From the NCBI GenBank assembly GCA_016841265.1, contig JAENZL010000006.1, positions 51,378 to 115,377 of the forward strand: a stretch of 64,000 nucleotides of DNA, given 5' to 3'. Positions 44,977 through 51,007 of this stretch are shown here, one piece after another. The DNA is from Methanobacteriota archaeon (lineage in GTDB: Archaea; Halobacteriota; Methanosarcinia; Methanosarcinales; Methanosarcinaceae). Position 1 is the first letter of the stretch, and each line of letters begins with the position of its first letter. The translations under genes and the position numbers were made by a program. A model generated the notes under the pieces. That model searched no databases and had not been told where the DNA came from. It worked only from the letters and a program-made list of their open reading frames with translations.

Positions 44977-45010
44977 AGAGGAAGTATATTCACTAAATTC
45001 GCTTCAAATT

Positions 45011-45093
45011 GCCCAGGTAGTCTAGCGGTAGGGCGACGGTCTCGAAAACCGTTTCTTCTTGGAAGATCGCAGGTTCAAATCCTGCCCTGGGCG
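45011..45093 (+). tRNA. tRNA-Ser (anticodon CGA)
   Basis: The acceptor gcccagg/cctgggc is fully paired with discriminator G. The anticodon stem acggt/accgt encloses ctcgaaa, giving anticodon CGA at 45043-45045. A long variable arm (tcttc/gaaga) and T arm gcagg-ttcaaat-cctgc confirm a class II serine tRNA. CCA is not encoded. Confidence 0.96.
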
Positions 45094-45101
45094 TAAAGCT
45101 A

Positions 45102-45278
45102 TCAGTACAAAGCCTTACTTCTTTTTTTTGGGGAAATTGAGTTATAAATTACCCCAATTCCAGTGATGATTCCATTCATTATATCGTGAAACAGGTATCC
45201 TAAGAATGTGCATGTTATAAAGGCTGTAATGAACTGTAAAAATAGGTATTTCTTTGAAACTTTCTCCATATTTAACAT
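45102..45278 (-). CDS. Small two-helix membrane protein
   Basis: The frame encodes 58 residues, starting MLNMEKVSKKYLF, with a basic N-terminus, two hydrophobic stretches around FITAFITCTFLGYLF and GIITGIGVIY, and a basic tail. Hydrophobic codon bias and the tandem neighbour with the same architecture argue for a real gene. caggaa precedes the first ATG, and the second ATG at 45269 is a possible start. I do not recognise the family. Confidence 0.5.
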   Translation of the reverse strand: MLNMEKVSKKYLFLQFITAFITCTFLGYLFHDIMNGIITGIGVIYNSISPKKRSKALY

Positions 45279-45319
45279 TTCCTGACTAGCAACGTTTTAC
45301 CCTAAAATGTAGCTTATTT

Positions 45320-45487
45320 TTAGTACCCGCGTAGTTCTTGCCTACTTGCAGCTATTACTCCAAATAATAATGCTATAAAAATTGAATCGCGAAATGTCGA
45401 GAATGTCAAATTTTTTGTTTTTGAGAAATATACAATTGCTGTTGCAAATGTTATTATAAATGTGAAGACTCCTATCGTGACATTCAT
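45320..45487 (-). CDS. Small two-helix membrane protein
   Basis: The frame encodes 55 residues, beginning MNVTIGVFTFIITFA and ending in a basic segment after a second helix (SIFIALLFGVIAA). A TATA-like tttatatg about 20-28 bases upstream of the ATG suggests a leaderless transcript. It is 41 bases ahead of another small membrane ORF on the same strand. The family is unknown and function cannot be inferred. Confidence 0.5.
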   Translation of the reverse strand: MNVTIGVFTFIITFATAIVYFSKTKNLTFSTFRDSIFIALLFGVIAASRQELRGY

Positions 45488-45660
45488 CTTGATTCAATAT
45501 GTTAAACATATAAATTAAAGTTTTTTATGAGGCTCTTTTTCCGACCCCTGCGGACCCTTACTGATCTATTCTAATCCCCAATAGATAAGAAGCTTCAAAA
45601 CTTCCAAACATTATAAAAATAAAAAAACAATATTGATATTTTTAAAAATCGATATATAGT

Positions 45661-45984
45661 ATGAGAAATATGTATTTTTTGAGAAATATGAAGAAATTTA
45701 TCACATATTCTCTGCCAGTAGTTACGTTTTTTGTTATAGGCGACTTCATAACTACATTAGTTGCCATTGAATTTGGATATGTTGAAAGAAATCCCATCCT
45801 GTATGAGATAGTGGCAAAGCCGGGTTTGTTCCTGTTAGTAAAGATGTCAATCCTGCCCGTGTTTGTATATCTTTACAAAACTTCTTCACCATTACTGAGA
45901 AAAGTATATACAGCAATTCCTACTTCCGCTGGAATTTTTCTCTGCCTTAATAATCTGTATTTCATTTTGAAGTCGGTGTTTTAA
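45661..45984 (+). CDS. DUF5658-like small membrane protein
   Basis: The frame encodes 107 residues with three hydrophobic helices. The GDFITTLVAIEFGYVERNP segment resembles the DUF5658 signature (D-x2-T-x2-x-GYxExNP). The first ATG is only about 2 bases after a TATA-like gatatatag, so the internal ATG at 45688 (MKKFITYS) may be the real start; another TATA-like element at about 45610 would support the first. Function is unknown. It is divergent from the two small membrane ORFs on the left. Confidence 0.65.
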   Translation: MRNMYFLRNMKKFITYSLPVVTFFVIGDFITTLVAIEFGYVERNPILYEIVAKPGLFLLVKMSILPVFVYLYKTSSPLLRKVYTAIPTSAGIFLCLNNLYFILKSVF

Positions 45985-46074
45985 TACTTCTTTTAAAAGG
46001 GAAAAGGTGCATGAAAAGGGGGAAATATTGTCTGGAGAAAGAGAGGGGACTCTCCCTCCAGTTCGCACGGTACA

Positions 46075-46197
46075 CTACTTCAATATCTTATATGGTGAAG
46101 CGATGTTGCCGGCGATTGCTGCGATACTGCAACTGGTTTCTTCAAGCAGTCTAAAGCACCACACGATGACCGCGAGATAGCCAATTGCAAGAATCAT
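46075..46197 (-). CDS. Forty-residue membrane-anchored small protein
   Basis: The frame encodes MILAIGYLAVIVWCF then a polar helix containing two Cys and ends PYKILK. A TATA element lies on the reverse strand at 46269-46279, about 75 bases upstream, and a gagggg stretch lies about 15 bases before the ATG. Coding support is limited by length. The family is unknown. Confidence 0.4.
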   Translation of the reverse strand: MILAIGYLAVIVWCFRLLEETSCSIAAIAGNIASPYKILK

Positions 46198-46812
46198 GCC
46201 CAAATTATCCCCTCGTTTTTCATTTGGGTTAGTGGCTGAATATCAGCCAAAAAGCAATTGAAGTGATACTATATAAAACGACCTAAAAAAAATTAGTAAA
46301 TGTCTAAAGAAAATTGCATTGTGTACAATTATGCTTCAATTTATTTAGTGGAAAATTATTCCCGAATGGGTGAAAAAAAGAAAGTAACTTAGGTCTCAGA
46401 AACATCAACAGGCCCTTATTCTACTCCTAACCCCAGGTAGTAAACCATGAGCATGTAATCGCAGCAATTGAGTGAAAATATGTCCATTTATCCCTAGTGT
46501 CCCTTTGTTCCGTTTTTACAGTATATATATAGGACCTGAATAAAGTTTTGAGACCTTCGTTTTAATGTGGTACATGCAGTACATACATTTCATAGCGTAT
46601 AAAATTTGCCATATTTATTAAGGAAGTTTTGACGCAGAAGTGTTTTCGTTTTGCTGAGCTGGTCCCGGGTTATTCAATACAACTTATTTGGCAGACATTA
46701 CAGATTTGGGATCAGCCTTTGAGGGCTTTTCTTCTTCAGGTATCATAAACATCTTTAAGTGCAAAAACTCCCAATATAAGAGGAAAAAATAGAATCGGAG
46801 GCTCCAACAGCA
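46198..46812. other. Sparse region with orphan promoter-like elements
   Basis: No ORF of note was seen. TATA-like elements occur at 46269-46279 (reverse), 46519-46532 (cagtatatatatag) and 46771-46781 (ccaatataaga, serving the next small ORF). A small RNA from the 46519 element is possible. Confidence 0.4.
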
Positions 46813-46968
46813 TTGAGATTAAATAGAAAAATAGCGAAGTACTTCGACCGTAAAGGTACGGGTAAAATAACCACATATGATTTCATAATTCGTCTGCTGG
46901 GATACATCTCTTTTACAATTGCGATTCTGGCAATTCTGGTATGGAGTTATTACAATTACCTGGCTTGA
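46813..46968 (+). CDS. Small single-helix membrane protein, TTG start
   Basis: A 51-residue frame with a basic N-terminal half (RLNRKIAKYFDRKG), then ISFTIAILAILVWSYY, a clear membrane helix. It starts with TTG at 46813; ggagg lies at 46797-46801, somewhat far, and a TATA box at 46771-46781 would place the 5' end close to it. No ATG start is available in the frame. The family is unknown. Confidence 0.45.
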   Translation: MRLNRKIAKYFDRKGTGKITTYDFIIRLLGYISFTIAILAILVWSYYNYLA

Positions 46969-47111: not shown

Positions 47112-48008
47112 TCACCAGACACTCGGGGAATACTCAAATTCGAATTCGTCCACTTTTTCAGGTGGAAGCCCCAGGTTTTCGAACATTTCCCGGAACACAG
47201 CCCTGTACTCTTCTTCAGGGATCTCCTTTCTGGCACGGTGCATTGTGATCTCCAACTGGGAGAAGCCCACACTGCTTACGCGAATAACGTATTTGTTGGA
47301 ACTGCTGGTTGTGCTTATGGTAGTTTCCGGGACCAGGTAGGCAACGTATCCAAGCTTCCTGCCGTCCCTGTAGAAATTTTCATCGTTCCACATCCCGGAA
47401 TTAAAGCTTGAGTCGGTGCTGCTCTCGTTCAGGTAGGCATAAACTGCCGGAAAATCCAGGGTATCGTTTACTTTAATACTAACCGAAAAACCGGCCTCAT
47501 TCTTTGCTGCAGCCTTCAGTTCTTTGAGATATTCCCCGGAACCGGCTTCATCCAGCCCGAACATAAGCCCTATAATATCGAGCATCCAGCTCTCATCAGG
47601 GAATTCAGAAGGTTCCAGGGGTTTTGAAAAAGAGGCATGACTCTGGTTTGTGAAAGAAAGACTCGTTACATTATCATACCGACTTACCCTAAGGTACGTT
47701 ACTTGATCGAAATTGATTTCAACCCTTGAAACAAGGAACTCGGTATCGAAGCTTCCTGCAACTTCTTCCACATTCCCGGGGTTAAAACCGCAAGAGTCAT
47801 CCATCCACCTGGTCTGAACCTCATATCCCTCATTTTCCGCATTTTCAAGCACCATCTCAAAATCCACGGGCCCGAGGTAGACCTCGTCCGAATGATACGA
47901 GGCCATGTCCGAAGAAAATAAGAGCAGAGCAAACCCCCCGTAAAAGAGCACTATGGAGCTTACCACGACAAGTACCAGAATCAGCAGTGTTTTCGCATAT
48001 TTGTTCAT
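47112..48008 (-). CDS. Hypothetical membrane-anchored extracytoplasmic protein
   Basis: A protein of about 298 residues starting at 48008 (MNKYAKTLLI), where aaggg-type sequence precedes the ATG. A single N-terminal hydrophobic segment (LLILVLVVVSSIVLFYGGFALLL) acts as signal anchor, followed by a soluble domain of about 260 residues rich in Glu/Asp/Ser with several NxS/T sites. I do not recognise a domain. A longer frame to 48113 is less likely. The downstream flank (46970-47100) contains degenerate repeats of the phrase cttgaacctg. Confidence 0.65.
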   Translation of the reverse strand: MNKYAKTLLILVLVVVSSIVLFYGGFALLLFSSDMASYHSDEVYLGPVDFEMVLENAENEGYEVQTRWMDDSCGFNPGNVEEVAGSFDTEFLVSRVEINFDQVTYLRVSRYDNVTSLSFTNQSHASFSKPLEPSEFPDESWMLDIIGLMFGLDEAGSGEYLKELKAAAKNEAGFSVSIKVNDTLDFPAVYAYLNESSTDSSFNSGMWNDENFYRDGRKLGYVAYLVPETTISTTSSSNKYVIRVSSVGFSQLEITMHRARKEIPEEEYRAVFREMFENLGLPPEKVDEFEFEYSPSVW

Positions 48009-48402
48009 TGAAACCCTTCTTTGAGAACTTTCTTTAAAAACCTTCATAAAAAAGCTTACTTGAAAATCATCCTTAGCCCCCATAAATCGGCGGAGGAGAT
48101 CAATCAAGTTCAAACAGAACCCACAGCAAGTTAGCCGTCCACACCATTCGAATATTCCCTATTAGTACTGTGAATCAGATAAATAAAGGCCTCCATTCCC
48201 CTTGAAATTCTAGAAGATATCCACACAGCAAATCTTCCGAAACCAAATTATCCTCTCAAAATCCCAAAACCTGGTAAAGTTTTCTTTATCGAGATTGATA
48301 AACTTTATGGAACAGTAAGCTCCAAAAAATCCATGATCCGGCTCCCTCATGCCGACAACTATATAAAATAGAAAGTAGATGTTCATACGCTTACCCTTAT
48401 AA
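48009..48402. other. Divergent spacer with tRNA-Trp promoter
   Basis: No gene is seen in these 394 bases. A TATA box (tatataaaatag, 48360-48370) lies 33-43 bases before the tRNA-Trp 5' end. Confidence 0.5.
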
Positions 48403-48598
48403 GGGGCTGTGGCCTAGCCCGGTATGGCGACGGGCTCCAGCGGATAAAATGATGAACAACGGGTCTACCGAGTTCTTCCCGACGGGGAAGGACGATGAGG
48501 AGCCGTTGGAGCACTGATTGATGCTCATAGAACTAAAACTGTTGAGGCAGTTGTTCGGAGAGACCCGTCGATCGTGAGTTCGAATCTCACCAGCCCCA
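48403..48598 (+). tRNA. tRNA-Trp (CCA) interrupted by an intron
   Basis: The acceptor ggggctg/cagcccc and T arm gtgag-ttcgaat-ctcac are fully paired. The anticodon stem acggg/cccgt closes a loop C-T-C-C-A-G-A once an intron of about 122 bases (48441-48562) after position 37 is removed, giving anticodon CCA at 48437-48439. Discriminator A is at 48598 and is followed by genomic cc. Confidence 0.95.
48441..48562 (+). ncRNA. tRNA-Trp intron acting as box C/D guide RNA
   Basis: The intron has box C atgatga (48449-48455), a D'-like ccga (48468), C' gatga (48494-48498) and D ctga (48514-48517). The guide before D, ttggagca, pairs with the tRNA so that the fifth base upstream of D faces C34. The guide before D', cgggtcta, pairs across the 3' splice site so that the fifth base faces C39. 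This matches the known euryarchaeal intron-guided methylation of pre-tRNA-Trp at positions 34 and 39. Confidence 0.85.
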
Positions 48599-49180: not shown

Positions 49181-51007
49181 ATGGAGAAAAGAAGAATATT
49201 AGCGTTCTCAGGAATTCTTATTATCCTGACGGCGCTAGCTGCAAGTATGGTATATGGAGAAGAAATTACAAATATTCCCAGGCAAGGGGAAAGCAAAATA
49301 ACCTTCCAGGAAGATTCCGAGGGGATCGTGACAGCGGACCTGAATTCGGGTCTGACAGCAGAGGACCTCGTGAATAATTTACTGGGGGAAGGAGTTGCTG
49401 TTTCTAACGTTACGTTGAAAGGGGCAAACATAGCAGCCGGGACCTTCACCGGAGGAGAAGGGATCCTCGGTTTTGAAAACGGAATAATTCTTAGCACTGG
49501 TAATATAACATTTGTAAAAGGTCCTAATGAATTTGATGATATTACCGCTGCAAACGGCCTGCCTGGAGATCCTGACCTTGATGCCCTTATCCCAGGTTTT
49601 CAGACTTTTGACGCAACTGTGCTGGAATTTGATTTTGTGCCCGAGACAGGGATTATACAATTCGAATACGTGTTTACCTCCGATGAGTACAATGAATTTG
49701 TTAACACGGAGTTTAACGATGTTTTCGGATTCTTTGTCAACGGAGAGAACATAGCTTTGATTCCGGGCACCACCACACCAGTTTCTATTAACAATGTCAA
49801 TAATGGAAATCCCTTCGGCACGAACACTAGCAATCCGGAATACTACATCAACAACGACCTGAGTGACGGGGGAGGAGAAATAAATACCGAGATGGACGGC
49901 TTAACGGTAGTCCTGACCGCCACAGCCGAGGTTACCCCTGATGAGACAAACCGTATCAGAATGGCTATCGCTGATGCAGGGGACTGGGCTCTGGACTCTA
50001 ACGTGATCATCAGGGCCGAGAGTTTCGTCTCCCCCAGATTGACGCTGGAACCCGAATCAGCCACCAACAATGTTGGGGAGACCCATACCCTGACCGCCAC
50101 ATTCGTCGACGAAAACGATACTCCGATAGCAGGGGAAAACATAAGCTTCAACGTGACAGCCGGCCCCAATAACGGGACAAAAGGCACGGATACGACTGAC
50201 GAAAAAGGCATAGCAACCTGGAACTACAGCGGGACAGCCGCCGGATCGGACACCATAGTTGCTTCAGGCGGAGGAGAGACCTCTAACAAGGTAACCAAGG
50301 TCTGGGAAGAAGAAGGCGCAGCAGAGCCGAGGCTGGTTCTGGAACCCGAATCTGCCACCAACATACTCGGCACCACCCATATAGTAAAAGCCATCCTCAG
50401 CAATGACAACGGAACCCCCGTAGCCAATGAGACGATAACTTTCAATGTAACCAATGGGCCATTTGCCGGGCTTTCAGCGACCGCGATAACCGATGCTAAC
50501 GGGACTGCTACCTGGTCCTATGGGATAACTCCCGGCACTGACACCATAGTTGCCACGGGCGCTGGAGAAACCTCAAACGAGGCCACCAAGACCTGGAAAG
50601 CAGCCGAAGGGGCTTCTACCCTGCTGACCCTGGAACCCCGCTCAGGCACCAATAACATTGGCAGCTCCCATATAGTGAGAGCAAAACTCGTCGATGAAAG
50701 CGGAGCCCCGGTGCCAGGAGAAATGATAACCTTTGTCGTAAGCGACGGGCCCCACCTGGGCACCTCCGGCACAAGCCTGACCAACGCCAACGGGACAGCC
50801 ACCTGGTGCTACTACGGCATATTCACCGGTAACGACACAATATCCGCCAGAGGAGGAGGCCAGGCCTCTGAAGAAGTCTTCAAGACCTGGGAAACCGGCA
50901 ACAATACATCGGGATCAAAAAGTTTCATGACAATCGAGGATTCGGAAGGAGTTAAAGAAGGAGGCATCTGGACCCTCTTTACGAGTATCTTTGAGAAAGT
51001 AAGGTGA
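49181..51007 (+). CDS. Secreted choice-of-anchor L / triple Ig-like repeat protein
   Basis: A 608-residue exported protein. The signal peptide covers residues 1-27. A choice-of-anchor L domain follows (about 40-285; EFDFVPETGIIQFEYVF and SDEYNEFVN are typical), then three Ig-like repeats of about 95 residues, each starting LxLEPxSxTN and ending in GGGETSN-type strands, similar to bacterial group 1 Ig domains. Unlike most such proteins it ends without a membrane helix or PGF signal (SIFEKVR). It is probably an adhesin or sheath-associated protein. Confidence 0.82.
   Translation: MEKRRILAFSGILIILTALAASMVYGEEITNIPRQGESKITFQEDSEGIVTADLNSGLTAEDLVNNLLGEGVAVSNVTLKGANIAAGTFTGGEGILGFENGIILSTGNITFVKGPNEFDDITAANGLPGDPDLDALIPGFQTFDATVLEFDFVPETGIIQFEYVFTSDEYNEFVNTEFNDVFGFFVNGENIALIPGTTTPVSINNVNNGNPFGTNTSNPEYYINNDLSDGGGEINTEMDGLTVVLTATAEVTPDETNRIRMAIADAGDWALDSNVIIRAESFVSPRLTLEPESATNNVGETHTLTATFVDENDTPIAGENISFNVTAGPNNGTKGTDTTDEKGIATWNYSGTAAGSDTIVASGGGETSNKVTKVWEEEGAAEPRLVLEPESATNILGTTHIVKAILSNDNGTPVANETITFNVTNGPFAGLSATAITDANGTATWSYGITPGTDTIVATGAGETSNEATKTWKAAEGASTLLTLEPRSGTNNIGSSHIVRAKLVDESGAPVPGEMITFVVSDGPHLGTSGTSLTNANGTATWCYYGIFTGNDTISARGGGQASEEVFKTWETGNNTSGSKSFMTIEDSEGVKEGGIWTLFTSIFEKVR

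Follow-up and report, generated by a model that had tools for sequence, protein, structure and literature searches.

The region around 45–47 kb of the window (the window being the whole stretch of 64,000 nucleotides analysed) is best explained, with a probability that we put at roughly 60%, as a conserved gene backbone with a variable interval, in which one small membrane protein gene (ORF4) is real, a small hydrophobic gene (ORF2) is mobile, a truncated copy (ORF1) is decaying and a fourth frame (ORF3) is either a young gene or no gene. All four hydrophobic frames reported by the initial annotation (58, 55, 40 and 51 residues) were found where it had placed them, each containing a 19-residue segment whose Kyte-Doolittle mean reaches 1.8 or more.

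The excess of such frames over shuffled sequence is real. The intergenic stretches hold six ORFs of at least 38 codons with a strongly hydrophobic 19-residue segment (at least 1.6), two of the six being antisense overlaps. Dinucleotide shuffles gave 0.67 ± 0.82, and the probability of at least four such ORFs was 0.003. The features of the interval are as follows.

45010-45094, plus strand: tRNA-Ser(CGA), bordering the variable interval on the left (ARAGORN; Rfam tRNA 60.6 bits)
45102-45278, minus strand: ORF1, 58-aa frame, copy, truncated at the 3' end, of a small membrane protein with two helices (family profile; junction against relative G003)
45147-45153, no strand: approximate deletion junction joining the tRNA-Ser trailer to ORF1 codons (G003 carries about 1.45 kb here)
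45320-45487, minus strand: ORF2, 55-aa small hydrophobic protein (8 genomes; omega 0.35)
45507-45514, minus strand: TATA box of ORF2, TTTATATG, at -27 to -20 from the ATG; upstream block largely conserved in other copies
45661-45984, plus strand: DUF5658 small membrane protein gene, cargo (Pfam PF18902; 107 aa)
46078-46197, minus strand: ORF3, putative hydrophobic frame of 40 aa from ATG (only one relative, in G003)
46270-46277, minus strand: TATA-like box of ORF3, TTTATATA, at -80 to -73; retained in G003
46753-46760, plus strand: TATA-like element of ORF4, CTTTAAGT, at -60 to -53, within the conserved block ATAAACATCTTTAAGTG
46797-46801, plus strand: Shine-Dalgarno-like GGAGG of ORF4 (GGGAG/GGAGG in most of 14 genomes)
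46813-46968, plus strand: ORF4, 51 aa, TTG start, basic head and single transmembrane helix (14 genomes; omega 0.17)
48403-48598, plus strand: tRNA-Trp, identified by its sR3 intron, bordering the variable interval on the right (Rfam tRNA 47.2 bits, sR3 51.8 bits)

A variable interval between two tRNA genes

Several elements of the initial annotation were borne out. TATA elements, reported for at least three frames, were seen at ORF2, ORF3 and ORF4, ORF1 having no obvious box of its own; ORF2 and ORF1 are indeed tandem on the reverse strand, ORF1 starting 41 bp after ORF2; the neighbouring DUF5658-like membrane gene scored 35.1 bits for PF18902 against the Pfam cut-off of 25.2; and both flanking tRNA genes are real. 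The right-hand tRNA was missed by ARAGORN and detected by Rfam, which also placed an sR3 box C/D guide RNA inside its intron, an arrangement that marks it as the archaeal tRNA-Trp.

Presence and absence at the interval were compared in three relatives from the window's genus. One of them (G001) lacks window positions 45116-45536, with ORF1 and ORF2, and 45998-46554, with ORF3, while keeping the DUF5658 gene and ORF4; a second (G002) lacks everything between the end of tRNA-Ser and about 46745, the DUF5658 gene included, and keeps ORF4; the third (G003) keeps all four ORFs and the DUF5658 gene, and is missing about 47201-48297, which is most of a 333-aa gene between ORF4 and tRNA-Trp. Genes have thus been gained and lost in the interval while ORF4 has persisted. 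The ancestral backbone is PAC2 - PHP - tRNA-Ser(CGA) - ORF4 - intron-bearing tRNA-Trp, the remainder being lineage-specific cargo, and the interval between the two tRNA genes is insertion-prone.

This distribution bears on the reading of the initial annotation in which the four frames work together as a cluster of small membrane proteins that serve in stress or regulation. The frames are all hydrophobic, lie close together and exceed chance in number, and the ORF2-ORF1 tandem recurs in G003 and, as a remnant, in a further genome (G087). Yet ORF4 stands without the other three frames in both G001 and G002, neither ORF1 nor ORF4 accompanies ORF2 at the other sites where five of its eight copies are found, and most ORF1 relatives occur in other contexts, the window's own ORF1 being truncated. 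A single cluster is consequently very unlikely, and is already contradicted by presence and absence.

Two larger genes were observed nearby. The 333-aa gene (47112-48113, minus strand) is membrane or lipoprotein-like and has no Pfam match. Just past tRNA-Trp lies a 608-aa protein with Big_1 Ig-like repeats (49181-51007, plus strand), and genes resembling it occupy the same place in G002, G017 and G104.

ORF4, a conserved small gene upstream of tRNA-Trp

A profile search found ORF4 in 14 of the 112 Methanosarcinaceae genomes, with no stops in any copy and leaving out of the count two weak matches inside frames longer than 300 aa. The carriers comprise all four genomes in the genus of the window, both g2 genomes and eight from g8, a genus with named Methanosarcina species among its members; a scan of GTDB genome contigs found none outside Methanosarcinaceae. 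Being absent from most genomes of the family, ORF4 is therefore dispensable for the lineage. The codon model gave an omega of 0.17 with a 2dlnL of about 163 over omega fixed at 1, and independent pairs of genomes were in agreement, G087-G092 for example giving pS 0.56 and pN 0.07. The TTG start is aligned in most copies (ATG at the same codon in G104), and the block with the TATA-like element aligns across most of the 14 genomes. Nearly every copy is followed downstream by tRNA-Trp/sR3 and, wherever the sequence extends far enough, preceded by tRNA-Ser(CGA), beyond which the PHP and PAC2 genes are usually found; most of the copies from g8 also have a rubrerythrin-like gene, named from its sequence, between tRNA-Ser and ORF4. 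Taken together, the comparisons indicate that ORF4 is a real, vertically inherited and unannotated gene.

It is scarcely credible that this conservation is a by-product of functional RNA or of tRNA-processing signals upstream of tRNA-Trp. The copies are always near tRNA-Trp, as such a reading would have it, but the changes cluster at third positions, in keeping with the low omega, the sole length difference is an in-frame 12 nt, and genomes of g8 have a TATA-like box between ORF4 and tRNA-Trp. On account of that same box, co-transcription of ORF4 with tRNA-Trp was set aside.

As a coding gene, ORF4 would be transcribed from its own TATA box and translated via its own Shine-Dalgarno site into a protein whose basic, presumably cytosolic head precedes one C-terminal membrane helix. 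The head carries the motif KYFDR..TGE..DF..R, and the invariant residues (K9, Y10, F11, D12, R13, G17, D23, R27, G30, S33 and F34) belong for the most part to the head or to the beginning of the helix. This pattern suggests a binding surface with a membrane anchor, and hence an accessory subunit; with the N-in topology predicted by the positive-inside rule, ORF4 would most likely be a tail-anchored accessory subunit or regulator docking on a membrane complex. Its AlphaFold model consists of two helices (mean pLDDT 79), with insignificant Foldseek matches.

Could the head instead be a membrane-anchored, degenerate EF-hand-like sensor of calcium or metal? In the loop DRKGTGKITTYDF, positions 1, 6, 8 and 12 are spaced as in an EF-hand, such that ORF4 of the window's genus resembles the helix-loop-helix of PF13405 and PF00036 in D1, G6, I8 and D12. 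The head matches Pfam EF-hand_6 weakly (E 0.021) and a calmodulin-like PDB profile at E 0.06, and 11 of the 11 weak Foldseek matches of the predicted fold are EF-hand proteins, all with E above 3. Every one of these scores is nevertheless below threshold, the Pfam profile reaching 15.0 bits against a cut-off of 25; positions 3 and 5 bear no acidic ligands; four added loop residues break the spacing in the eight Methanosarcina-genus (g8) members, and so in most of the ORF4 copies; and there is no partner EF-hand. ORF4 thus departs from an EF-hand proper, whose 12-residue loop bears acidic or polar ligands at positions 1, 3, 5, 9 and 12 and whose profile score exceeds the cut-off. The sensor is quite improbable, and calcium binding is not claimed for ORF4, given its incomplete set of ligand positions and the four-residue insertion of the g8 members. 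That such a single EF-hand-like sensor, anchored in the membrane, regulates a Methanosarcinaceae membrane complex is highly improbable. We know of no methanogen example of calcium or metal sensing of this type.

Apparently mobile or decaying frames, and a doubtful one, beside tRNA-Ser

ORF2 was found in eight genomes, a ninth and weak match with stops being left uncounted. The codon model (omega 0.35, 2dlnL 12.3) argues that it is a real gene. Its TATA box lies so close to the ATG that the mRNA would be leaderless or nearly so. Only in the window, G003 and G087 does ORF2 adjoin tRNA-Ser; the other five copies are at unrelated sites, among neighbours named by eye as a corrinoid-type gene pair and as NUDIX-like, transposase-like and polysaccharide flippase-like genes. 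Silent divergence between the window and the g8 copies is 0.14-0.28. In pairs of genomes with both genes, pS is 0.14-0.25 for ORF2 versus 0.60-0.74 for ORF4 (window against G104, 0.14 and 0.60; window against G105 and G033, 0.15-0.18 and 0.74). Such divergence is too low for vertical descent, and ORF2 therefore appears to have moved horizontally by recent transfer, although DNA or RNA constraint could account for part of the low value instead. Near ORF2, G105 and G033 have an IscB-like gene or an IS605-like end, recognised by eye, and such elements may possibly contribute to its spread. Hairpins of similar sequence surround the gene in several genomes. Overall, ORF2 would be a small hydrophobic gene in its own right that moves horizontally and has a near-leaderless promoter, its product presumably inserting into the membrane.

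In G033 (L082, L083) a repeat of about 50 bp, CTCAAAAACTTGAGCTATTAAGCGAAAGTTTTAGGGAGGGGTAGTTCAC, was observed upstream of both ORF2 and ORF4; it resembles the right end of an IS200/IS605-type element, with a TnpB-like fragment alongside.

ORF1, a 58-residue frame in the initial annotation, turned out to be composite. It matches its family up to about GIGV, and its last ~15 codons, below about 45153, are the antisense of the tRNA-Ser trailer. In G003, about 1.45 kb separates tRNA-Ser from the GIGV point and ORF1 is longer; the state in the window is derived, by deletion, because the relatives share the continuation seen in G003. Helix 2 is cut short at its end and the tail is gone, such that the complete helices, with a glycine-rich helix 2, that define the family are not found in the window copy. 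A frame resembling a HEPN/abortive-infection-type relic was recognised by eye in the ~1.45 kb of G003 (L079, reverse complement, ~608-2052).

The family itself is real. A profile search recovered it in 27 of the 112 family genomes, plus one relative in another family of the order, and it is under purifying selection (2dlnL of about 58 in the codon model), the intact members having ~55-70 aa, two helices and mostly a basic tail. In six genomes (G030, G062, G023, G094, G102 and G088) the ORF1 relatives adjoin a thioredoxin/DsbD-TM protein, usually together with a LolA-like lipoprotein or a secreted protein, and several other relatives adjoin eS6/IF2 genes. One array in G030 (L088, 2827-6235) comprises a secreted protein, a LolA-like lipoprotein, an ORF1-family protein and a thioredoxin/DsbD-TM protein; similar arrays were seen in several genera (L087, L118, L128, L129 and L135). 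Such arrays might possibly encode a system, concerned with disulfides or lipoproteins, that includes a small membrane subunit. Whereas intact relatives lie within DsbD_TM/thioredoxin and LolA_like neighbourhoods in several genera, ORF1 of the window is away from such genes and truncated.

The window copy of this two-helix accessory protein would accordingly be in decay, having lost the end of helix 2 to a deletion that abuts the tRNA-Ser trailer, and it is probably non-functional. In the part shared by the window and G003, pS is 0.17 and pN 0.03; this part still looks constrained, so that any loss of function would be recent, and the truncated frame could still be translated. In G087 (L146, 8212-8290), about ten ORF1 codons with an early stop are fused to the 3' end of tRNA-Ser, which points to a second, independent loss at the same tRNA.

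The small size, hydrophobicity, patchy occurrence and horizontal movement, along with the hairpins around ORF2 and the decayed ORF1 copies, might also suggest that ORF2, and ORF1 with it, are membrane toxins that spread horizontally and tend to decay, as part of a type I toxin-antitoxin system or another selfish module of that sort. Against that, the sequences presented no identifiable antisense RNA or antitoxin gene, PADLOC returned no match and PHROGs none that was convincing, and relatives were not found in the searches made of viral contigs (ORF1, ORF2), phages (ORF1) and plasmids (ORF2). The operon-like arrays of the ORF1 family with thioredoxin/DsbD and lipoprotein genes likewise speak against a toxin, and we consider one unlikely.

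Upstream of its ATG, ORF3 shows a good TATA box together with a G-rich site. Its comparison is limited to the window and G003, which differ by one synonymous and four nonsynonymous changes, the stop in G003 coming three codons earlier, and this alignment offers no evidence of coding. ORF3 is either a very young gene or no gene. A match in G010, at 47% over 30 aa and an E of 0.0017 per genome across 112 genomes, was put down to chance.

The initial annotation had looked to conservation free of stops and a dN/dS below 1 to substantiate its frames; ORF4 and ORF2 show both, whereas the ORF1 family is real with a truncated, fused copy in the window, and ORF3, with its single relative, gives no such support.

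Relation to known small proteins and significance

No significant family was found for ORF1-4 in Pfam, NCBIfam, PADLOC or PHROGs, and PDB profile searches gave no significant match for any of the ORF families. None of the four matches PF18902, of which the 107-aa neighbour is a member.

Ribosome profiling in M. mazei yielded 314 unannotated small ORFs (PMC11456600). That set likewise consists of overlooked Methanosarcinaceae frames of at most 70 aa, some of them membrane-associated, the difference being that ORF1-4 are predicted here from sequence. The small proteins MtrI and MtrR are able to regulate the membrane complex Mtr (PMC12774963, PMC13370731). Both are lineage-specific and act at a membrane complex, as is proposed here, and MtrI is encoded by a stand-alone gene. 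MtrI nonetheless has a zinc ribbon and a solved structure, in contrast to ORF families that lack a significant PDB match; its four-cysteine zinc ribbon motif, a criterion taken from the description of MtrI, is absent from the ORFs; and MtrR has no transmembrane helix.

Overlooked small proteins are hence already an established kind in Methanosarcina, to which ORF2 and ORF4 are a modest addition. Hydrophobic frames beside tRNA genes can be relics, as illustrated by ORF1 of the window, which is gene-like while its tail is an antisense tRNA trailer. A gene such as ORF4, with its TTG start, is easily missed by annotation. Two small membrane protein families supported by selection, ORF4 and ORF2, with no match in the family libraries searched, are thereby added to the small proteome of methanogens, and both can be put to the test in a genus for which genetic methods are established.
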